34,273 nt of DNA from a virus. How positions within the stretch are numbered: the stretch's first letter is position 1; the number at the start of each line of letters is the position of its first letter. The DNA is taken from positions 1 to 34,273 of IMG/VR virus record IMGVR_UViG_3300032607_000104; one strand, 5' to 3'. Positions 5,651 through 31,355 of this stretch are shown one piece after another. The translations under genes were made by a program, and so were the position numbers. A model generated the notes under the pieces. The model worked only from the letters and a program-made list of their open reading frames with translations, was not told the DNA's origin and searched no databases.

Positions 5651-6352
5651 TTAGTTACCTGATGCAATTTCACGAGCAATTTCAGCAAGTTCAGCTTTGG
5701 TAGATGTGTGTAACGCATCTGCTCCAAGTGGCTTCATTGTTTTGATTAACTCTGAGGCTGCAACAGGGTCAATACCCCAATCCTCAGCAAGGTCACGCTC
5801 TTTTACTGGTGTAACTGCGTATGCCGTTTTTGTACCGGTGCCAGACTTGCTGACTGCCCAGTAGATGTCGGGACGATTAAGTGGGCCAGTTTTCTTGTCA
5901 GAATCAAGCTTCTCAAGTTGTCCGCATAGACGAACTCCAACAACCATCAATTGAAGTTGTGGATCTTCGTCAGAAAGGTTAAGGACAGTAAACGCAAACT
6001 TTTGGTCTGGCTTACTACCTACAGCAACTAGCGGGTCACCCTCGCCAATGCTAATGAATGATTTCTTACCAGGACGGTTTACCCAGTGCTGCATAAAGGA
6101 CATTGGCTCATTACCAATGAACTTAATTAGTTGGACATCTTCGTCAAATCGGAAATCAGTTGCGAAGGTTTTGTTGGACTTTGCTACAGCTTTCTTAGCC
6201 GCTGCCCAACCTGTTTGAATTACTGAAGAACGCTCAGGAACTTCTGTTTCGTCTTCAGTCTGAAAGATCTCTTCGAGAACTTCAGTTGTTGGTGTATCGA
6301 CTACATAAGAGTCGACGTTAGGTGTTTCGGTTGTTTCAATACGGATACCCAT
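5651..6352 (-). CDS. Probable single-stranded-DNA-binding protein
   Basis: This 233-aa protein has an acidic N-terminus (ETTETPNVD...EEIFQTEDETEVPE) and a beta-rich core. The core begins DVQLIKFIGNEPMSFMQHWVNRPGKKSF and continues to VAVGSKPDQKFAFTVLNL and QLMVVGVRLCGQL. The 'IKF..-x-P-x-x-x-x-HW' pattern is the kind seen in phage SSB-like proteins of actinobacterial phages. The C-terminal third looks helical (AASELIKTMKPLG). It lies immediately upstream of polA. SD AAAGGAG lies 9 nt before the ATG. The assignment rests on pattern and context, not on a decisive catalytic motif. Confidence 0.55.
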   Translation of the reverse strand: MGIRIETTETPNVDSYVVDTPTTEVLEEIFQTEDETEVPERSSVIQTGWAAAKKAVAKSNKTFATDFRFDEDVQLIKFIGNEPMSFMQHWVNRPGKKSFISIGEGDPLVAVGSKPDQKFAFTVLNLSDEDPQLQLMVVGVRLCGQLEKLDSDKKTGPLNRPDIYWAVSKSGTGTKTAYAVTPVKERDLAEDWGIDPVAASELIKTMKPLGADALHTSTKAELAEIAREIASGN

Positions 6353-11061: not shown

Positions 11062-11245
11062 TTAGAGGCTCCCTATAATCAATTGGTGTTGGTGCTGTAG
11101 CAAGTGCGCCACATAAAACGCACTCCATATCTAACATGTACAAAGAGATTTCTCCCTCTTCAAACATTGCTTGAACCTTCCATAAGAAAGAGCCACAAAT
11201 ACAAACTTCTATTGGAGCATCTTTATCTCTTAAATCTAAACTCAT
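11054..11245 (-). CDS. Small zinc-ribbon-like protein (63 aa)
   Basis: The ATG at 11245 overlaps the WhiB stop (ATGA), which fixes the start better than an upstream in-frame TTG at 11305. The protein has paired cysteines C15-x-C17 and C42-x2-C45 (EVCICGS and ECVLCGA) separated by a short beta-type segment (FLWKVQAMFEEGEISLYML), consistent with a one-zinc ribbon. Function is unknown. Its coupling to whiB suggests the two are made together. Confidence 0.65.
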   Translation of the reverse strand: MSLDLRDKDAPIEVCICGSFLWKVQAMFEEGEISLYMLDMECVLCGALATAPTPIDYREPLNG

Positions 11246-11496
11246 ACTAATGCTCGTTTCCGTCGTCTTAAGTTCTTCCGGTCTTGAGGAGTTGTACCGC
11301 CCCAAACACCATCCAAACTACTGTCCGACATAGCATACTCTAGGCAAGCAGTACTCAGCGGACAGCCCTGGCAAATAGCCTTTGCCTTATCCACGATCAA
11401 ACGATGCGTGTAGTCCTCAGGAAAGAACAACTCTGGATCCACTGACTTGCATGATTGCGAGCCATTAAATGGTGCTGATCCCAAATAAAGATCCAT
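11242..11496 (-). CDS. whiB: WhiB-family Fe-S transcription factor (canonical)
   Basis: From the ATG at 11496 the protein is 84 aa, the usual WhiB size. Cluster ligands are C16, C42, C45 and C51 (SCKSVDPELFFP; AICQGCPLSTAC), with the G-V-W-G-G turn at 63-67 and a basic tail (DRKNLRRRKRA) for DNA contact. An in-frame ATG at 11604 would add 36 residues with no WhiB similarity and lengthen the overlap with the helicase gene from 32 to 140 bp, so the internal start is preferred. A GAAGGGAAG stretch lies just upstream. It probably redirects host transcription. Confidence 0.9.
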   Translation of the reverse strand: MDLYLGSAPFNGSQSCKSVDPELFFPEDYTHRLIVDKAKAICQGCPLSTACLEYAMSDSSLDGVWGGTTPQDRKNLRRRKRALV

Positions 11497-12706
11497 ACTC
11501 TTCAAACTTCCCTTCTTCCCAGTCCCATAAGAGATCACTTGATGCCGGTCCGCAGTTACGACTTGCAACGATACGTAGTTCACGGGAAGTATCGTCTTCT
11601 TCATCTTGCTTTTGTAATCCTAAAATAACATCTGAGTCTTGATAGAAAGATGATGAGTAACCAATTGCATCTGCTGATACTTGTCGCTTCTTCATCTTCC
11701 ATAACAAAACCTGAGTTGAAATAACAATAGGAATTTTCTTAGCCATAGCAAGTTGCTTAAGACCACGAGTTATATTTGTAAGAGCTTGAGGACTGTTCTG
11801 CTCCCCAGTGATCTCATCTACCATCAGATACACACCGTCCACAAACACAATGTCTGGACGAAGCTTGTCGATCTTTGCAGCAAGTCCAGTAACAGTCATT
11901 GCAGATACTGCATCTGTTAAATAGAACTTGTGCATGCCTTCCATATCTTCAAGAACCTTTTGATACCGAGCCTCTTCTTCTTTAGTCAGGGCCCCGCGAA
12001 TCAACCGGGAGTGGGCAATGTGGGAACGCATTGCATCGTGTCGATGTTGCTGCTCAATGTTGTTCATCTCAAAAGATTGAAACAAAGGGACAAAGCCATC
12101 GTTGTGCACGTTGACTGCAACCTGCAAAGCAAGAACTGACTTACCTGTTTTAGGTGGAGCAATAATTGTAATTAGCTGACCAGGTTGCAAACCAGCGGTC
12201 GCTTGATCAATAGTTCTAAAACCAGTAGCAATACCTAACAAACCGTTTGGACGAGTCTTTACATTTAGATACTCATCAAAGCGTTGAATAGCATTAAGAG
12301 TTAAATCAATATCTGTTGTCTCACGAGAACCTTCATCAAGAAGCTTTGCTACTCCCTGATTTAGTACTGCGATAGCAGTGTTGTGATCTCCCGAAGCAAT
12401 TGCTTCTGACGCATCTTGTACAACCGTAATTGTGCTTTGACGTTTACGGTATTCAATAAGCTGATCTAATAAATAATCAATGTTGTCTTCTACTGCTAAC
12501 AAACGATATGTAGGAAAGTTATCTAGAACAGTAACGCCAGTAGGAACTTCTTGATACTTAGTCCAGTGTTGACGGATAAAGCGCCACACTGCTTTGTTCT
12601 CATCTACAAAAAACCAGTCGTCGTTAACACCGGCCTCTAGAAGAATAGAGATATCTCGAGTTCGTACAGCGCGGGAGAGAAGCCGTACTTCGTTATCTGC
12701 TGCCAC
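11465..12706 (-). CDS. DnaB-type replicative helicase
   Basis: This 413-aa RecA-fold helicase has an N-terminal helical DnaB-like domain (1-100), a linker, and a motor domain. The motor domain starts LLGIATGFRTIDQATAGLQPGQL, with Walker A APPKTGKS (183-190), the SLEM-like SFEMN (211-215), and Walker B DIVFVDG (285-291). The remaining H4-type segment includes VISTQ and SSSFYQDSDVIL. The start is GTG, preceded by GGGGGGA. The DnaC-type loader and the winged-helix initiator lie upstream in the same operon, so the phage carries a self-contained loading set. Confidence 0.88.
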   Translation of the reverse strand: MAADNEVRLLSRAVRTRDISILLEAGVNDDWFFVDENKAVWRFIRQHWTKYQEVPTGVTVLDNFPTYRLLAVEDNIDYLLDQLIEYRKRQSTITVVQDASEAIASGDHNTAIAVLNQGVAKLLDEGSRETTDIDLTLNAIQRFDEYLNVKTRPNGLLGIATGFRTIDQATAGLQPGQLITIIAPPKTGKSVLALQVAVNVHNDGFVPLFQSFEMNNIEQQHRHDAMRSHIAHSRLIRGALTKEEEARYQKVLEDMEGMHKFYLTDAVSAMTVTGLAAKIDKLRPDIVFVDGVYLMVDEITGEQNSPQALTNITRGLKQLAMAKKIPIVISTQVLLWKMKKRQVSADAIGYSSSFYQDSDVILGLQKQDEEDDTSRELRIVASRNCGPASSDLLWDWEEGKFEEYGSLFGISTI

Positions 12707-23521: not shown

Positions 23522-25245
23522 TATAAGAACCCATCTCTTTGTTTACGAGCAGCAATAATGTCGCTACTACTTGTATTTTTAATAACTTGAGTAATTTTAT
23601 TAATGCTTTCAGCCTGTTTAAATTTCTTAAAGTTTCCACTTGCAAGGTCTGGAAGACGTTGAAGTCCTATTTGGACTACAGTTCTAATAGGTATCATGTC
23701 TCTAGTAAACATACTATGCTCTATGTTAATACTCTCCATAATTACCTTGTAGCGCTGTCTTTCAGAAATTTTAAATATAAACGGTAGTTGAGTCATATAG
23801 CCCATATTTGCACTAAGTAGCTCTAAACCATCTAAAGGAGATTCTCCCATTAAAACTACTTTTTGAGGGTTTCCATTTACTACTCTAAATAGGTATTCAA
23901 GATCGTACTCAGTTCCACGGTGTAAAATTCCTGCGCATTGTTCAGCATCCATTAATACTGGGTAAGAGCTAGATAGAAAAGGACCCCCACCATTTTTCTT
24001 CCATTGCTTCATAGTAACCATGTCAGATACTCGGTCTAATAAAATATTTACGCTAATAGTTCCGCCAATACCGTCAGCCACTAGTGCAGCGCCGTTTTCA
24101 TTTGGACGAGTCCAGTCAACCTTATTATTTGAACTCATATTAATGCTTAGATAACTTGGGTTAAACAAAAATCTAAATCCCCAAAGCTTGTCTAAGTTGG
24201 CTGCGGAAGTAGTAGCAAATTCAGCTTGTTTTTTATCTGGAAGATCAATTATTTCTGGGTCTACGTAAAAAGAAGCTAGTTGATCGTACTTATTTGCGTT
24301 TTCATAGGCAATGGATTCGGTATCTGCTCTAGCAGAAAAATGTCTAGTAGATATGTGTGGGTAAGGGTTAAAGTTTTGAGCTCTTGTTACCGAAGGAGGT
24401 GTAGGGCCAGGAGAGGTGTCGGCACCGCCTCCTCCGCCACTATTACCAAGGGCACAGTTTTTAGCTGCGGACAGCAAAGCCTTAGCTTTTTGCCAACCGC
24501 TTCCTTTTTTAGTAAAATCGTAGTTAAATTCTCTTTTATTGTTTAACTTATCTTCTCTTTTAAATTGTCCAAGCTCATCATAATACTTAACAGTAATTGT
24601 TATTTCCCACTTAGGTCCTAAACCTTTTTTTGTTTCGTCCGCAGTTCTGTTTACTTGTACGGCATTGTGCATCCACAAACGGGCCCACTCTCGTTTACAA
24701 GAGTTCCACTCATACTGAGGGGTTTGACCAAGAGAAAAACCTCCATCAGTAGCACTTACGCTAGTTGGTACGCCCGGAGGAGTAGCTTTTTTGCTAAAAA
24801 TAGCTGAGGGGATACTTGAATTTGATTGAATTTTTACATCTGCCCATATACCGTTAACTTGAACTTGAGCGGTAAATTTAGGTGAGGCAGTTCCATTTGT
24901 ACCTTTAGGGGTTAACGTAAAATCGTAAAATTTATCTTGAATTGTTCTAATACCGCTTACATCAGCAAATGCCTTTACTGTTTCTTTAAAGGTAGCAAAC
25001 GGCCCTGTTCCAAGAACCCTAGATTTTACAGTGCCGTCACCAGATATGGCTACGCCGCCATCTGTAATAACAGTAGTGTTTTTATATAGGGTTATTCTGT
25101 AAATAACTCTAGAGTCAATCATTACTGATTTACTTTTAGTAAACCTTACTCCATAAATAGATGGGGCAGTATCTTGATCGGTACTGTACTTATTAATTTC
25201 GTAAGCTTCGACGGTGTAAAAATACCCGGAAGGTGCATCTGGCAT
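23521..25245 (-). CDS. Tail/baseplate protein downstream of tape measure (XkdP-like position)
   Basis: This 574-aa protein has a beta-rich N-terminal half, a Gly-rich hinge (GNSGGGGGAD, about 270), and a C-terminal domain with FRFLFNPSYLSINMSSNNKVDWTRPNENG, VNILLDRVSDM, ILHRGTEYDLEYLFRVVNG and INIEHSMFTRDMIPIRTVVQIGLQRLPD. This matches the domain found before LysM in XkdP-type tail proteins, which contact the baseplate and tail tip. Here LysM is encoded by the next gene. Junction TAATG with the tape measure. Confidence 0.7.
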   Translation of the reverse strand: MPDAPSGYFYTVEAYEINKYSTDQDTAPSIYGVRFTKSKSVMIDSRVIYRITLYKNTTVITDGGVAISGDGTVKSRVLGTGPFATFKETVKAFADVSGIRTIQDKFYDFTLTPKGTNGTASPKFTAQVQVNGIWADVKIQSNSSIPSAIFSKKATPPGVPTSVSATDGGFSLGQTPQYEWNSCKREWARLWMHNAVQVNRTADETKKGLGPKWEITITVKYYDELGQFKREDKLNNKREFNYDFTKKGSGWQKAKALLSAAKNCALGNSGGGGGADTSPGPTPPSVTRAQNFNPYPHISTRHFSARADTESIAYENANKYDQLASFYVDPEIIDLPDKKQAEFATTSAANLDKLWGFRFLFNPSYLSINMSSNNKVDWTRPNENGAALVADGIGGTISVNILLDRVSDMVTMKQWKKNGGGPFLSSSYPVLMDAEQCAGILHRGTEYDLEYLFRVVNGNPQKVVLMGESPLDGLELLSANMGYMTQLPFIFKISERQRYKVIMESINIEHSMFTRDMIPIRTVVQIGLQRLPDLASGNFKKFKQAESINKITQVIKNTSSSDIIAARKQRDGFL

Positions 25246-28184
25246 TAGTTACTTCCTATCGCTGCAATGTCTTTATCGGCTGCAATTGCTTTCTTAAACC
25301 TATCAAGCATTACAAGAACTTCATTATCTCCTGCTTTAGCAATGTTAACAGTCATGTTTACGTTAATAGAGCTAGCTGATCCGCCACCGCTATTGTTTCT
25401 AATACGGTCTGCTTGACCTTTATTAAGAACCATTTCACCGTCGTGCAGGTAAGCAAGGCCTTCTTTAGTTGAGTCAGCGCCATAAAAGTGTCCTGGAATT
25501 CCTGCTGCTTTAGAAGCTGTTTCAGCGTCATCTAAAAATTGTGAGAAAGCGCCGTTCTTATACGCAGACCAAGCTTTCCAATTCTTACCTTCGTTAGAAA
25601 TATTCCACGCTGCTTTAACGTTAAATGACGGATCAAACAAACGCTTGCCGTCTCTCCACTGCCCAGAATCACCAAACTTTTTAGGGTCTTTAAGACTTCT
25701 AATTTGGAAAACACCCATACTTGGACCATAAGTTTTGTTAGTAATTTTCTCATCGCCAACAGCTTTACTACGACCACCAGATTCAGCTAACGCTACTGCA
25801 AAAGCTGTTTGAAGAGACTTGCCTCTAAAACCTTGAGCGTGAAGAGCTTTTAGCAATCCTTTACGAGAACCAAAGGCCATTCCACCAGTGTCTCCAGAAG
25901 CAGAGGTCATTTGATTGTCGCCCATCAAACCATCTAATACAGATGATCCCTGCCCTTTACTTTTAGCCCAGTCTACGGCGCCAGAATCAGAAACATCTCC
26001 GTATGAGAGTGGGCCACCCTGTTGAATCATTGCTAGAAGTTGACCGCCTGCGTAGGCAGTTCCTTTAGGGGTATCTCCTCCCAACACAAACTGTGAAAGA
26101 TCTCCAGCCATATCAGTTTCTTTGTCATTCTTAAACAATCCAGAAACGCTTGATTTAATTTTTCCAAAAATGCTCTTAGGGTCTACTGATTGCTTATTTG
26201 TTTTATCTTTACGTACTTCAAAGTGAAGGTGGGGTCCAGTAGAAGATCCTGAACCAGGTGCTCCCTTTTTACCCCCAGAGTAAGCAATAAGACTTCCTTG
26301 GGTAACTTTTTGCCCAGCTTTTACTACCGCACGACTTAAGTGTGCGTAATAGGTATAAAAACCTTCATGCTTAATTACAACATACAAGCCAAAACTTCTT
26401 GAAGAATTTGGTTGAGTTGTTACTTGATCTACAACACCGTCTGCTGCTGCTAGTACTGGACTACCTACTGGCATGGCATAGTCAATACCACCGTGGTGGT
26501 GCCTTTCCTTAGGGTTGTTTGGATCGGTTCTCCAACCAAATGCAGAAGAAATATGTTTTGAATTTGGAGCAGGATTAACACCTACAGTTTGTGCTACTCC
26601 AGAACTTGCTGGTCCGGAGCTATCTCCACCACCCTTACCCATAAGCTGACCTACTGCGTTTGATCCTCCACCAATTAACGCACCGGCTAATGCTCCCAAA
26701 GGCCCACCAAACATTGCGCCACCACCAGCACCAATAGCAGTGCTAGTTAACAAAGATTTAAAATCAAATCCTTTTTTAGTTTTTGCAGATTGATATCCGC
26801 CGTAAGCAGATAACGCTGCTCCTAAAATAGGCACTGGTTTTGCTAATGAGGCAAACTTACTAAATTTACTTGCTGTAGCTGCAGCACCTGCTGCTGTTCC
26901 AGCTGCTCCAACTGCTCCGGCTCCACCAGCCGCACCTGCAGCACCAGCCGCACCTAAAGCTGGGGCAATAAGTTTTCCACCTCCACCAAGTGCCATACGC
27001 ATCATAAGCATGTTTGAAAGGGCACCTGCAGCACCAGACATGGTTGCCCCTGCGCCACCTGCTTGTGGAAGAGTCTGCAGTATTCCCTTTAGTGATGCTA
27101 AACCGTTTACTACGCCAGGCAATGTTTCAGCTATAGCAGCAAACCCGTTATTAACTGCTGCGGCAGCTCCAAGAGCTCCTTGGTATCCGCCAACTAATCC
27201 TTTTTCTGTTCCCTCTAAAAGACGATTTTGTGAGCTTTGAAAATTAAAGTTACTCTCTTGAACTCCACCTTTAACGCCCATAGTTCCAAGCATGCCTTTA
27301 GCACTTGACATTTGTTTTGCAGTAAGTGGCTTGTTGTTTTTAAATCTAGCCATAAGTCCGCTTGCGTATAGATTAAATAGGCTGGGGTCTCCACCAGCAA
27401 TAGTCATAATTGTCTGATACTCAACACTGTTTGGGCTAAACATTACCTCAGGATTTTTAGGTGTCTTTCCTCGGTATATCTTTGAGTACAACTCGTTAAT
27501 AATTTCGTTAGGTGGTCTAAGGTTTCCCTCTCGGTCACGAAGTCTAATTCCTAGACGCAACATGTTCATTCCGTTTTGGCTAGCGTAAGATCCCGCGGCT
27601 TGTTCGTTGCTCATACCACTGACAGCACTCATGCCACCAAGCTGGTTCATAATTCTTTGTGTGCTTACTGATTGTGCACCGTAACCGCCTTGAGACAGAA
27701 TCTGTCCCATAGCCATAGTTGGTCCCATGGAGCTAGTTGCGTTCCCACGTCCAGCCATAGAGTTTGCAGAACTAATTACTCCTCGAGCACCCATGCGGCC
27801 AGAACTGTACATGGCAACGCCTTCAGCGCTAAGTCTTTGTGTTACAGCAGTCATTGTGTTAGGCATGATGCCCATAGCACCTGCACCAATAGCTGCTACT
27901 CCTAAGCCAACTCTTGAAGCAGTTGACATACCGCCGCCACGGTCAGGTAACTGAGCAAGGCTGCTACCCATAGTGCTGGTAGGTTTGCCATTAGCGGCAG
28001 ATTGAGCATCAGCAGTTGCTTGAGCATGCTTTTTTATTTTTTCGTAACTTTTTTCTATGTTAGTTACGGTTTTGAGCATGTTAAGAAGACCTTTATTACC
28101 GGTCTCAGTTAACTTTTCGACACTCTTTTGACCGGTGAAAGCTTCATCTCCACCGGTGCCTAAGTTTCCTCTTGCCTCTGCCAA
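25245..28184 (-). CDS. Tape measure protein with M23 peptidase and lytic-transglycosylase-like domains
   Basis: This 979-aa protein starts at TTG (28184), preceded by GGCGGTGAG. The N-terminal half is helical/low-complexity and contains a strongly Ala/Gly-rich hydrophobic tract (about 400-430 and 490-520). An M23 zinc-peptidase domain follows (SSAFGWRTDP, HHHGGIDY about 562, YAHLSR, GPHLHFEV about 650), then an SLT-like domain (ALAESGGR about 800, GVFQIRSL), and the C-terminal signature YLHDGEMVLNKGQADRI. It sets tail length and probably digests peptidoglycan during DNA entry. Confidence 0.92.
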   Translation of the reverse strand: MAEARGNLGTGGDEAFTGQKSVEKLTETGNKGLLNMLKTVTNIEKSYEKIKKHAQATADAQSAANGKPTSTMGSSLAQLPDRGGGMSTASRVGLGVAAIGAGAMGIMPNTMTAVTQRLSAEGVAMYSSGRMGARGVISSANSMAGRGNATSSMGPTMAMGQILSQGGYGAQSVSTQRIMNQLGGMSAVSGMSNEQAAGSYASQNGMNMLRLGIRLRDREGNLRPPNEIINELYSKIYRGKTPKNPEVMFSPNSVEYQTIMTIAGGDPSLFNLYASGLMARFKNNKPLTAKQMSSAKGMLGTMGVKGGVQESNFNFQSSQNRLLEGTEKGLVGGYQGALGAAAAVNNGFAAIAETLPGVVNGLASLKGILQTLPQAGGAGATMSGAAGALSNMLMMRMALGGGGKLIAPALGAAGAAGAAGGAGAVGAAGTAAGAAATASKFSKFASLAKPVPILGAALSAYGGYQSAKTKKGFDFKSLLTSTAIGAGGGAMFGGPLGALAGALIGGGSNAVGQLMGKGGGDSSGPASSGVAQTVGVNPAPNSKHISSAFGWRTDPNNPKERHHHGGIDYAMPVGSPVLAAADGVVDQVTTQPNSSRSFGLYVVIKHEGFYTYYAHLSRAVVKAGQKVTQGSLIAYSGGKKGAPGSGSSTGPHLHFEVRKDKTNKQSVDPKSIFGKIKSSVSGLFKNDKETDMAGDLSQFVLGGDTPKGTAYAGGQLLAMIQQGGPLSYGDVSDSGAVDWAKSKGQGSSVLDGLMGDNQMTSASGDTGGMAFGSRKGLLKALHAQGFRGKSLQTAFAVALAESGGRSKAVGDEKITNKTYGPSMGVFQIRSLKDPKKFGDSGQWRDGKRLFDPSFNVKAAWNISNEGKNWKAWSAYKNGAFSQFLDDAETASKAAGIPGHFYGADSTKEGLAYLHDGEMVLNKGQADRIRNNSGGGSASSINVNMTVNIAKAGDNEVLVMLDRFKKAIAADKDIAAIGSN

Positions 28185-28185
28185 G

Positions 28186-28341
28186 TTATCTCACCGCCTT
28201 AGGTCTTGTAATAGCCTTAGATAAAAATATTAATCGTTCTCGTACTGTAAGACCTCTTATATCCCGTAACGACCAGCCCGGGTAGTACTGAGCTAGAAGA
28301 TCATAGGCATCAATTACGTCTTGATATGTTATTTCATTGAC
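28186..28341 (-). CDS. Frameshifted extension of the tail assembly chaperone (51 codons, no start)
   Basis: This reading frame has no ATG, GTG, TTG or CTG before residue 40, yet encodes a convincing peptide (VNEITYQDVIDAYDLLAQYY...WSLRDIRGLTVRERLIFLSKAI) ending in TAA 1 bp before the tape-measure start. It is in the +1 frame relative to the upstream gene, and the two frames meet at TTT CGT C. A G/GT-type chaperone fusion of about 324 residues (273 + 51) is predicted. Evidence is position, lack of a start, and the slip site. Confidence 0.75.
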   Translation of the reverse strand, partial: VNEITYQDVIDAYDLLAQYYPGWSLRDIRGLTVRERLIFLSKAITRPKAVR

Positions 28342-29161
28342 GAAACAACTCTGCCAGTGTTAGTGGCAGGCTTACCTCCTGGCCGCAGTTTTTGCAAGCC
28401 TTTTTAATTTCGCTTAGTTGTGGTCCAGGATTACGCTTTGCAATCTCTTCTAGCAAGGTTCTACGATCATTGATTCCTAGATTTCTAATTCGACTCGAGT
28501 CTAAAACTGGCTGATCACCAATCTCAACTACACAAGAAGTTAACAGCAAAGTATCTAGTTCTGCAGAGTTCTTATCGGTAGCATTAATGATCTTTGTTTG
28601 AACATCTCCGCTAGGTAAGTTTACTTTTGCAAGTCCTGCTTTAAGCTCTACTGTAAATCTACGATCATTGATAGGGTCATCTAGCTCTTTGGTCTCAACA
28701 TCTGTATCTAGATCAATTTTAAAAGTTTGAAGCTCTGGGCATTTATCGCATACAGTAGATAGTTCTACTTCGGCTCCAAATGTTGCTTTTCTAATTGCTA
28801 GAAGCAGAGCTTCTCTGTCTCCTGCAAGTAGAACTCCCAGAATAGCTTTGGTAGCTGGTTGGCCTCCAACGGAGACTGTTCCTCGCTCCAAGATAGCTAG
28901 TAGAGCTTTGCCTGGATCAGAAATCTTTACAATGGCTTCCTCATCGGAGCCTGTAAGTTCTCTAACTTCAGCTGTTCTATGTACAGTTGCTTCAAACGGA
29001 TCAATAAAACCCGCTGGAAGCTTAACCTCTGTTTCAGGGAGTGATGGGATAACCACTTCTGGTATAGATCCCATCACTTCCTGATTAACAAGATTGTTTA
29101 CATCTTCTAACAGTTTGTTCGCCATTGCCGGATTTTCTGCGGCATTGATAGTTGTAGACAT
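28334..29161 (-). CDS. Tail assembly chaperone / gp26-like protein
   Basis: This 275-aa protein is acidic, with an N-terminal leader, a middle domain with LLAGDREALLLAIRKATFGAEV, and two Cys pairs C138-x2-C141 (VCDKCP) and C256-x2-C259 (ACKNCG), a zinc-ribbon-like pattern seen in T4-type baseplate/chaperone proteins. It lies between the tail tube and the tape measure, where chaperones are always found, and ends in TTT CGT CAA TGA, the predicted frameshift site. SD AAAAGGAAT lies upstream. Confidence 0.75.
   Translation of the reverse strand: MSTTINAAENPAMANKLLEDVNNLVNQEVMGSIPEVVIPSLPETEVKLPAGFIDPFEATVHRTAEVRELTGSDEEAIVKISDPGKALLAILERGTVSVGGQPATKAILGVLLAGDREALLLAIRKATFGAEVELSTVCDKCPELQTFKIDLDTDVETKELDDPINDRRFTVELKAGLAKVNLPSGDVQTKIINATDKNSAELDTLLLTSCVVEIGDQPVLDSSRIRNLGINDRRTLLEEIAKRNPGPQLSEIKKACKNCGQEVSLPLTLAELFRQ
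28339..28345 (-). other. Predicted +1 ribosomal frameshift site (TTT CGT C)
   Basis: At codon 273 the frame-0 sequence reads TTG TTT CGT CAA TGA. If the Phe tRNA slips from UUU to UUC, translation continues in GTC AAT GAA with no stop for 51 codons. UUU CGU C is the same heptamer that gives +1 shifting in influenza PA-X. A -2 shift would reach the same frame, but re-pairing is poor. Confidence 0.65.
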
Positions 29162-29184: not shown

Positions 29185-29808
29185 TTAGAAGGCTGCTGCT
29201 GATCCTGCGGCTGTTAATGCTGAAGCGTACTTAGCATCCCAACCTTCATGAACAAGAGTCATTTCTTCGACCATCAAGCTATTTCCACCAGCATCTAGGT
29301 TGCTGTATGAAAGGTTTGTAATCCACGCATTATATACGCGGAAACGAATAGCTACGTGAGGTGTATCTGAGTTTACTCCTGCAAGAGTTGCATCTGCACC
29401 AGATAGACCAGCAGGGTTTGGATGGCTAAGAACGCGGATATCCAAATCGCAACGGAAATCTGCTCCAATACCAGCTTTAGCTCCTGAGCTAACTACTGAG
29501 AATAGACGCTTCATCCAAGCGGCCTGTGAGGAATCCCCCAACATTACTCCTTTGCTAAGTGTGATTGGACTAAACGAAGTTTGTCCAGGCAATTGGTGAA
29601 CAGTGGTGTTATATCCACCTTCACGGTATTGGATTGCTTCAGTAGAGACGGTTAGGCCTGATACTGAGGTAAATCCCATTTTAGTGTCGAAACTGAATAC
29701 GGGTGTAGCTGCATCAGTTGTCGGTAGAAAGTCTACGAGAAACCGAAAGTTACGAACTGGATCGGTTGCTAGAGTACTTAATACGTTAGTAAACGCGGGT
29801 TTTGCCAT
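29185..29808 (-). CDS. Tail tube protein (T4 gp19-like)
   Basis: This 207-aa protein has the tube signature: VRNFRFLVDF near residue 20, GFTSVSGLTVSTEAIQYREGGYN, LPGQTSFSPITLSKGVM, a central acidic portion (DFRCDLDIRVLSH) and a C-terminal AWITNLSYSNLDAGGNSLMVEEMTLVHEGW strand. It forms the inner tube of the contractile tail. It lies directly after the sheath gene, as in T4, and precedes the chaperone and tape measure. Confidence 0.93.
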   Translation of the reverse strand: MAKPAFTNVLSTLATDPVRNFRFLVDFLPTTDAATPVFSFDTKMGFTSVSGLTVSTEAIQYREGGYNTTVHQLPGQTSFSPITLSKGVMLGDSSQAAWMKRLFSVVSSGAKAGIGADFRCDLDIRVLSHPNPAGLSGADATLAGVNSDTPHVAIRFRVYNAWITNLSYSNLDAGGNSLMVEEMTLVHEGWDAKYASALTAAGSAAAF

Positions 29809-29828: not shown

Positions 29829-31355
29829 CTACGCCGAAGCGTTTCCGGTGATCTGCCCAATGCTGATCACAATGAATTCTGCAGGATATTCAACAGCCAC
29901 ACCAACTTCGATGTTTACTCGACCATTTAAAATATCTGTAGCTGTGTTATTTGAAGCATCGCATCTTACGTAAAATGCTTCCTCTGGAGTTTGTCCACGT
30001 AGGCCACCCTGTGACCAGTAATTACGAAGGAAGTTTCCAATCGCAGTACGAAGTTGGTTCCAAAGAATCTCGCTGTTGTTCTCAAACACGGCAAAGTTGC
30101 TTCGGTCAGTGATTTCTTTCTTCAAGAAGATCATTGAGCGGCGTACGTTGATGTAACGCTCTCCGGTTGAGTTGTTAAGTGTACGACCACCCATAATTAC
30201 AATGCCGCCACCAGGAACGTTACGAATAGCGTTTACTGGCTTAGATGCTGAGTTAAGTGAATCTAGTTCTGCGTTTGTTAGGGTGCGCTCTAGAGCAACG
30301 GCACTTCCAATTTTTGTACCAAAGCCCGCTGGGGTCTTGAATACTCCACGTGAAGCGTCTGTTTCTAGATACTTACCTGCTGCAATTGCTGCTGGTCCAA
30401 CTACGCGAGTTGCGCCTGGCGCTGATTTTAGTAGGTCTGGAATTACTACCCATGGGAAGTAGATTGCTGCGTTTCCGCCATCTACTGCTCCGCAACCATC
30501 GATTGCGTAAGTAACGGCTTCTGCGGCTGTACTTCCTGCTGGTGGATCAATTAAAGCAAATACATCTCCACGAGCATCTGCATAAGCAGTTATATCGTTG
30601 TCTAAAAGAACCTTAGCTGCACGAGCACCTGTCTCACCACCTGATGCAAATGCATAAGATGCATCTGCGTTCATCATAATTAGTGGGTTAGTAATTGAAT
30701 CAAAGGTTGATAGGGCAGTTTGGTAGCTAGCACGTGTAGGTGCTGATCCGTCTGCTCCTGAAGTAAACGCCTTGACTCCAGCAATTTCCGGCTGGTTAGC
30801 TGGAGCTGCTGTACCTGAAGTTAGGTTAGTAAGTGTTACGTAATATGAAGCTGAGTTTACGTAAGCTACCGCGTAGCGGCTGTTTGTTGTGGACATGCTT
30901 AGATCAGTAAACTGTTCTAAGATGCCATTTGCATCTGAAATAATCAGATTAAATGTGGTTGTAGAAGAAGATGTAACTTCTGCTGTCAATGCGTTACCCC
31001 AAGCACCAGCACTTTTTGCTGTTACTCGAATTGTACTAAGTGGGGTACCTGCACGGTCACGAAGGACTACGGATGCTGCTGTAGCACCTGAACCTGTAAC
31101 ACGCTTAATGTATGCACTACGTCCGCCATTTGCAAAAAACGAATAGATTGCCCAGGTAGCTGGGTAGCTATCTGAAAGGCTTCCAAAAGTTTTTCCAAAG
31201 TCATACCAGCTTTGAATTAAGACTGGCTCTGTTGTAGGTCCTTGTGCAAATGCACCTAGGAACGCTCCGCGAGCTTGTCCGTTGTTTGCTAGTGTGATTA
31301 ATTGAGGCAGAGGTACTTCATTGATGAAGACTCCTGGTCTGCTATAACTTGCCAT
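29829..31355 (-). CDS. Contractile tail sheath protein
   Basis: The 508-aa protein starts MASYSRPGVFINEVPL, and its C-terminal region contains RYINVRRSMIFLKKEITDRSNFAVFENNSEILWNQLRTAIGNFLRNYWSQGGLRG, TPEEAFYVRCD and NIEVGVAVEYPAEFIVISIGQ, the conserved sheath core. The middle is a variable, Ala/Gly/Thr-rich outer domain. It drives contraction during injection. SD AAGGAG precedes the ATG. Confidence 0.95.
   Translation of the reverse strand: MASYSRPGVFINEVPLPQLITLANNGQARGAFLGAFAQGPTTEPVLIQSWYDFGKTFGSLSDSYPATWAIYSFFANGGRSAYIKRVTGSGATAASVVLRDRAGTPLSTIRVTAKSAGAWGNALTAEVTSSSTTTFNLIISDANGILEQFTDLSMSTTNSRYAVAYVNSASYYVTLTNLTSGTAAPANQPEIAGVKAFTSGADGSAPTRASYQTALSTFDSITNPLIMMNADASYAFASGGETGARAAKVLLDNDITAYADARGDVFALIDPPAGSTAAEAVTYAIDGCGAVDGGNAAIYFPWVVIPDLLKSAPGATRVVGPAAIAAGKYLETDASRGVFKTPAGFGTKIGSAVALERTLTNAELDSLNSASKPVNAIRNVPGGGIVIMGGRTLNNSTGERYINVRRSMIFLKKEITDRSNFAVFENNSEILWNQLRTAIGNFLRNYWSQGGLRGQTPEEAFYVRCDASNNTATDILNGRVNIEVGVAVEYPAEFIVISIGQITGNASA

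Follow-up and report, generated by a model that had tools for sequence, protein, structure and literature searches.

Frameshifting in the tail chaperone is a widespread means of setting the assembly of phage tails, and the signals described for it are mostly -1. Lambda gpG/gpGT and most known tail chaperone shifts make use of a -1 slip on a slippery heptamer (Xu, Hendrix and Duda 2004, cited in PMC5009743), and a +1 shift has been proposed in the tail chaperone of HSTV-2 (cited in PMC5009743). In HF1-like haloviruses a +1 shift at TTT-CGC has been proposed between two chaperone ORFs, which the authors themselves call unproven (PMC7230728). A shift at CCC_U is known in structural genes of Listeria and SPP1, and SEA-PHAGES genomes have furnished 350 forward training sites, with the authors of PRFect stating that no general motif is known for forward shifts (PMC10885494). 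A preliminary description of the DNA studied here had held that a +1 event with the PA-X heptamer would be unusual in a phage; for a +1 shift in the chaperones of tailed viruses, HSTV-2, the HF1-like haloviruses and the SEA-PHAGES sites are precedents. Influenza A PA-X shifts at UCC_UUU_CGU and plant amalgaviruses at UUU_CGN (PMC3498833, PMC5052127). As to stimulation, an engineered hairpin placed 5' of the slip site promotes +1 shifting in yeast (PMC3639245), and on 70S ribosomes a stable engineered 5' hairpin has about 60% of the effect of an internal Shine-Dalgarno on +1 shifting (PMC6321510).

Here we describe a tail assembly chaperone locus in the window, by which we mean the whole stretch of viral DNA that was analysed (34,273 nt; IMG/VR record IMGVR_UViG_3300032607_000104). 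We judge, with a probability of roughly 0.88, that this locus encodes a two-form chaperone (TAC-N and TAC-NC) by means of programmed +1 ribosomal frameshifting, a reading that is drawn from sequence comparison, with no protein, ribosome-profiling or reporter data behind it. Similar to lambda, the locus keeps the order tube, chaperone, tape measure, and would make its extended form by a shift near the end of the short ORF; unlike lambda, it pairs a +1 site at UUU_Y with a 5' hairpin, in a chaperone of the T4 gp26 type (PF12322). It likewise resembles the HF1 group, where we inspected the HF2 junction, in that two chaperone ORFs preceding the tape measure gene are proposed to be joined by a +1 shift; however, the HF1-like viruses and HSTV-2 are archaeal viruses, and no slip-adjacent hairpin has been proposed for them. 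HF2 was rejected as a homologue, its TAC-N having no match to PF12322. The TTT CGC site of HF2 (L305, minus strand, about 1341-1811) has a strong stem-loop ~20 nt upstream, not adjacent to it.

Organization of the tail module and its chaperone

The tail module of the window lies on the minus strand throughout and runs from sheath through tube, chaperone and a short overlapping frame to the tape measure gene (Table 1), and in the window as in the named phages the chaperone gene is placed between those for tail tube and tape measure. The tape measure gene apparently starts at a TTG adjoining the stop of the extension, and its product carries M23 peptidase and lysozyme-like domains. Because the window holds two WhiB genes, its content suggests that the host of the virus is an actinobacterium; hosts are unknown for most contigs in the comparison set.

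The short form of the chaperone belongs to the T4 gp26 family (PF12322, E=1.9e-10, 41.3 bits against a curated cut-off of 24.5), also matches phrog_150, and possesses two conserved CxxC pairs. A sequence search of the PDB found no match. In structure comparison with the PDB, the AlphaFold model of TAC-N (pLDDT 93.6) places the HK97 tail assembly chaperone 2ob9 at rank 2, with a modest Z of 4.2 and an rmsd of 4.6 over 96 residues, and its structural neighbours in BFVD are T4-like baseplate hub or assembly proteins. VIA-align returned only middling Z values, and the absence of a family from it is no evidence; TAC-N and the extension were modelled separately, not as a fusion.

The 3' end of the chaperone gene reads CTG GCA GAG TTG TTT CGT CAA TGA on the minus strand, and is overlapped in the +1 phase by a frame that is open from stop to stop over 57 codons (28359-28186). 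A fusion of about 324 aa had been foreseen in the preliminary description, and as a predicted reading it stands, since a slip from UUU to UUC gives 273 shared residues plus 51.

Table 1. Coordinates of the predicted features of the tail chaperone locus and of the WhiB genes, as positions in the window.
Feature	Position	Strand	Domain match or support
Tail sheath protein	29829..31355	-	phrog_23, PF17482
Tail tube protein (gp19-like)	29185..29808	-	PF06841
Tail assembly chaperone, short form (TAC-N), 0-frame ORF with ATG start, 275 aa	28334..29161	-	
Shine-Dalgarno-like AGGAGGU inside the chaperone gene, 28 nt 5' of UUU	28374..28380	-	
5' RNA hairpin CUGCCA-CUAACAC-UGGCAG	28351..28369	-	Fold; synonymous shuffles; stem scan
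E-site codon UUG, strongly preferred	28346..28348	-	55% of Leu codons here against 14% expected
P-site slip codon UUU (UUU to UUC, +1)	28343..28345	-	UUU then C/U in 242/242 distinct junctions
UUU CGU C heptamer of the preliminary description	28339..28345	-	CGU C part varies among relatives
+1-frame extension (TAC-C part), running from the post-slip UUC to TAA, adding 51 aa	28186..28344	-	
Tape measure protein gene, TTG start, directly downstream of the extension	25245..28184	-	
Two WhiB-family regulators	1113-1442, 11242-11604	-	PF02467

Conservation of the slip codon and of the +1 phase

Loci for comparison were fetched by the chaperone protein or by chaperone alignments alone, together with the named phages, so that the junction itself was not selected for. 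They span 98% down to about 31-40% identity and include viral contigs, Streptomyces isolates and actinobacterial chromosomes. After removal of duplicates a first set held 193 distinct junctions, which form 87 clusters at 70% identity; a later set from two further scans added 49 new ones, for a total of 242. Every junction (193/193, then 49/49) has TTT at the corresponding position, and in every one the extension lies in the +1 frame. The base after UUU is C in 233/242 junctions (185/193 in the first set) and U in 9/242 (8/193), this U always being the first base of a stop codon, and TTC is never used at the slip position. The A-site codon is CGN in most, and otherwise CAR, CUN, CCN or a stop (the last in 9/242).

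We conclude from these alignments that the conserved core of the slip is UUU_Y, and that the UUU CGU C heptamer singled out in the preliminary description is one version of a wider rule. That heptamer is present in the window but is not conserved, CGU occupying the A site at only 40/242 junctions. For the same reason the search of relatives that had been advised recovers the +1 phase and UUU_Y throughout but not a fixed CGU C, and the resemblance to the heptamer of PA-X is only partial, covering the UUU_Y core while the A-site codon varies. The core is one at which a tRNA-Phe (GAA anticodon) re-pairs one base forward, as it does when UUU precedes a pyrimidine.

Streptomyces phages BRock, GiJojo, pSt2308 and LuckySocke share this arrangement, as do chromosomal loci of Streptomyces, Nonomuraea and Saccharothrix, and +1 versions with TTTCGT and TTTCAC occur in Streptococcus phage SagM-GXN1 and Bacillus phage SP-15. 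Chromosomes of these three actinobacterial genera (L128-L134) carry the whole sheath-tube-chaperone-tape measure module with UUU_C and the +1 extension. Left out of the counts were L041, which has a broken ORF, L135 (Lysobacter), which has a different layout, and L136 and L138, which are both +1 with UUU_C, distant, and have overlaps that are laid out differently.

From codon usage the chance of finding TTT in all 87 clusters would be P about 1e-39, a figure that we give as an indication only, for the sequences are related and nominal probabilities overstate their independence; moreover, the codon usage taken for the GC-rich loci rests in part on unverified ORFs. For comparison, another conserved Phe of the chaperone gene is written TTT 48 times and TTC 25 times. 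Among the 92 conserved columns tested, the slip Phe is the only one that we saw fixed to a single codon in 87/87 clusters (51% expected).

In the window the A-site codon CGU is not a rare one, because it is the commonest Arg codon of the phage, and a rare A-site codon was for that reason rejected as a driver of the shift in this phage. An Rfam search gave no match at the frameshift site.

The extension is a selected protein-coding frame

Past the chaperone stop the median dN/dS is 0.14 in the +1 frame, compared with 1.31 and 1.67 in the other two. On this evidence the extension is protein-coding and under purifying selection at the protein level. Its model consists of three helices (mean pLDDT 86.9), for which a Foldseek search returned no significant match. 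A link to gp51 can be drawn in two steps, each of them a weak profile match, from the extension to the SP-15 type (E 4e-4, prob 36%) and from there to KVP40 gp51 (E 7e-5, prob 62%); the direct match of the extension to KVP40 gp51 is also weak (E 4e-3, prob 9%).

It is conceivable, if improbable, that the downstream ORF forms a small gene of its own, translated from a rare or non-canonical start, and that no fusion is made. KVP40 and Bellamy have a gp51-like ORF of this kind, annotated as a gene and with its own ATG, and in the records of Streptomyces phages BRock, GiJojo, LuckySocke and Alone3 the extension is entered as a short gene by itself. However, as the preliminary description had pointed out, the overlapping ORF of the window has no usable start, the sole ATG, GTG, TTG or CTG in its extension being a GTG two codons before the stop. 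The start codon in related phages that would have spoken against a frameshift is likewise lacking as a shared feature: 31/87 clusters have no ATG, GTG or TTG between the slip and a conserved W, and an internal start was rejected as a candidate on finding that start positions are not conserved among clusters. A separate gene would also leave unexplained both the constant +1 phase and the fact that UUU_Y never varies where the upstream gene ends. We retain the frameshifted fusion, and the separate-gene annotation in the four Streptomyces phages is probably a mis-annotation. In those records the extension stands as a hypothetical protein at 5815-5997 (BRock, L043), 5815-6012 (GiJojo, L044), 5872-6027 (LuckySocke, L046) and 2372-2527 (Alone3, L307); no joined feature was found in the Streptomyces phage records that we viewed, these four among them.

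Granted that ribosomes cross into this frame, they could do so by moving two bases back, as in the gpGT of phage Mu, which offers a precedent in a tail chaperone (PMC3498833). A +1 and a -2 shift reach the same frame and can be distinguished only by the junction peptide. We give the backward route little credence, as UUU followed by C or U permits perfect re-pairing of tRNA-Phe one base forward at all 242 junctions, whereas two bases back this tRNA would usually face UGU or a related triplet, mismatched at the central base, on which it would re-pair poorly.

A conserved hairpin precedes the slip codon

The 5' hairpin was missed by the preliminary description and is the more novel element of the locus. 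Its 3' arm stops 5 nt before UUU in the window, and 3-8 nt before it in most relatives, and a stem scan found it independently. For the 33 nt ending at UUU the mean MFE in the first set was -10.2 kcal/mol against -5.9 in synonymous-codon shuffles, whereas other windows along the chaperone gene show about no excess over such shuffles; in the later set of 49 junctions the corresponding values were -11.7 and -5.1, with 86% at p<0.05. A single-stem score reached P<0.05 against shuffles in only 40% of the first-set clusters, and we infer from this that some members have a weaker hairpin, or one in a different place. Windows 3' of the site gave little sign of a downstream stimulatory structure (mean z -0.4 to -0.8).

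The stem is written differently from clade to clade: its arms are CTGCCA/TGGCAG in that of the window, CCGCTA/TAGCGG in a second and GTTCCGA/TCGGAAC in a third, with CCCAC/GTGGG in BRock and GTCCCC/GGGGAC in another group. Covariation was assessed in 60 distinct sequences of a single related clade (L219-L298). Here a 7-pair stem is 91.9% paired, and cells compensated by a double change number 38; shuffles gave 10.9 +/- 2.6 such cells, and sliding the partner never more than 19. One of its pairs occurs as GC 25, AU 10, UA 9 and CG 5 times, both bases being third codon positions. Because the register of the stem differs between clades while its place stays constant, the comparison suggests that selection acts for a stem at this place and not for a particular sequence. 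We regard the hairpin, on these alignments, as conserved as an RNA feature; any stimulating effect is inferred.

Could the hairpin together with UUGUUU instead be a weak intrinsic terminator or attenuator before the tape measure gene, with the UUU as part of its U tract? A consensus scan does flag the stem plus the tail AGTTGTTTCG, but such scans yield 1.2 hits per shuffle, the tail has no continuous U run, and other clades have CTGTTTCAG or TATCCTGTTTCG at this position. Nor would a terminator fix an in-frame UUU, demand that C or U come next, or keep a selected +1 ORF, and we hold this explanation to be very improbable. That the frame break might be an artefact of assembly, a sequencing error (which the preliminary description had named as a possible refutation) or the mark of a gene in decay has the metagenomic origin of the window as the sole point in its favour. 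It is refuted by conservation, since 242 distinct sequences, isolate phages and bacterial chromosomes among them, break frame at this very position, and by purifying selection after the break.

A Shine-Dalgarno-like element upstream

Further upstream the chaperone gene contains an AGGAGGU whose AGGU is kept in 74/87 clusters and in 48/49 new junctions, and is retained even where the Glu codon becomes Lys or Gln. The Glu eleven codons upstream of the slip is GAG in 97%, compared with 52% expected. No conserved start codon follows AGGAGGU in the relatives compared, and the element is not at the distance found in prfB (28 nt vs 3 nt). A Shine-Dalgarno of the prfB type, about 3 nt 5' of the P-site codon, was considered and rejected, the G-rich bases at 3-5 nt being the 3' arm of the hairpin.

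Proposed mechanism and comparison with other systems

Taken together, the programmed +1 frameshift in the chaperone that had been proposed on the window alone is upheld by comparison, in that phase, slip codon and a selected extension are conserved over very large divergence. The shifting itself and its efficiency are inferred. We envisage that most ribosomes would end at the UGA, UAA or UAG that lies 0-6 codons (usually 2-3) past the slip, giving the 275-aa form, while a fraction of those with tRNA-Phe on UUU in the P site would slip +1 to UUC (or to UUU where a stop follows) and go on to the 324-aa form, whose last 51 residues are predicted to fold into a small helical unit resembling the C-terminal domain of the T4 gp51 type. 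The 3' arm of the hairpin would sit inside the ribosome or at its exit when UUU occupies the P site. The hairpin may fold again in the mRNA exit region, drawing the message backwards and easing the re-pairing of tRNA-Phe at UUC, although this pushing role is inferred. A weak E-site UUG would help the slip, which fits the idea that weaker E-site pairing raises +1 shifting (discussed in PMC3498833), and in some members a stop or slowly read A-site codon may help it too, the stops at 9/242 junctions serving as a slow step. As for the function of the long form, we infer that the ratio of the two forms could serve tail assembly around the tape measure protein, like that of lambda gpG and gpGT.

As in PA-X and the amalgaviruses, the P-site tRNA-Phe would slip from UUU to UUC, and CGN is the commonest A-site class; however, those shifts take place on 80S ribosomes, with UCC in the E site where here it is UUG or CUG, and unlike theirs the A-site codon of this family is not fixed and a 5' hairpin is present; no homology is implied. 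Bacterial prfB (RF2) shares with it the 70S ribosome, the +1 direction, a pyrimidine-rich P-site codon and, in some members, a stop in the A site, but has an SD-antiSD duplex by the E site where the window family has an intramolecular hairpin instead; we saw no sign of RF2 autoregulation at the window locus. The stem lies immediately 5' of the slip site as in the engineered reporters, but unlike in them it is natural and conserved.

Within the chaperone family itself both directions of shift seem, from the reading frames, to be represented. Vladimirov et al. 2022 is reportedly a paper on T4-like chaperones. The TAC-N of T4-type KVP40 and of cyanophage Bellamy falls, like that of the window, in PF12322, and the window's extension resembles a gp51-type C-terminal peptide through the chain of weak profile matches given above; in contrast to the window, their C part (55-56 aa, gp51-like) lies in the -1 frame beside UUUUUUC. 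PF12322 relatives with a downstream ORF in the -1 frame are KVP40, Bellamy, Phosso and L301. At the TTTTTTC chaperone ends of Bellamy (L302, 2680-2869) and KVP40 (L303, 3310-3489) a -1 frameshift in addition to the separate start is possible. In Sinorhizobium phage Phosso (L137, 4560-4812) the chaperone ends CAT TTT TTC GAA TGA, and a small -1 ORF follows with an ATGA overlap.

Frameshifted tail chaperones and +1 proposals, including one at TTT-CGC, are already known; what is new here is the conserved 5' hairpin. We found neither a +1 site of the PF12322 family nor a natural 5' hairpin for +1 shifting in the open-access literature, subscription papers being outside the search, and the hairpin may be a kind of frameshifting signal not previously described in nature. 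On balance we lean, without great assurance, towards regarding it as the first natural +1 signal driven by refolding of a 5' hairpin against the back of the ribosome, acting on UUU_Y, possibly together with AGGAGGU, and spread over many contractile-tailed phages that are mostly actinobacterial where hosts are known, with the T4-type relatives being -1.

The combination of UUU_Y with a 5' hairpin, maintained over very large divergence, is a concrete and searchable signal for forward shifting, and the site lends itself, as a natural case, to asking whether ribosomes are pushed forward by a hairpin that closes behind them. Small genes that have been annotated after such chaperones (e.g. BRock gp135) probably encode the terminal parts of fusion proteins. 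Moreover, because -1 and +1 versions share one protein family, the evolutionary switch in the direction of the shift is open to study.
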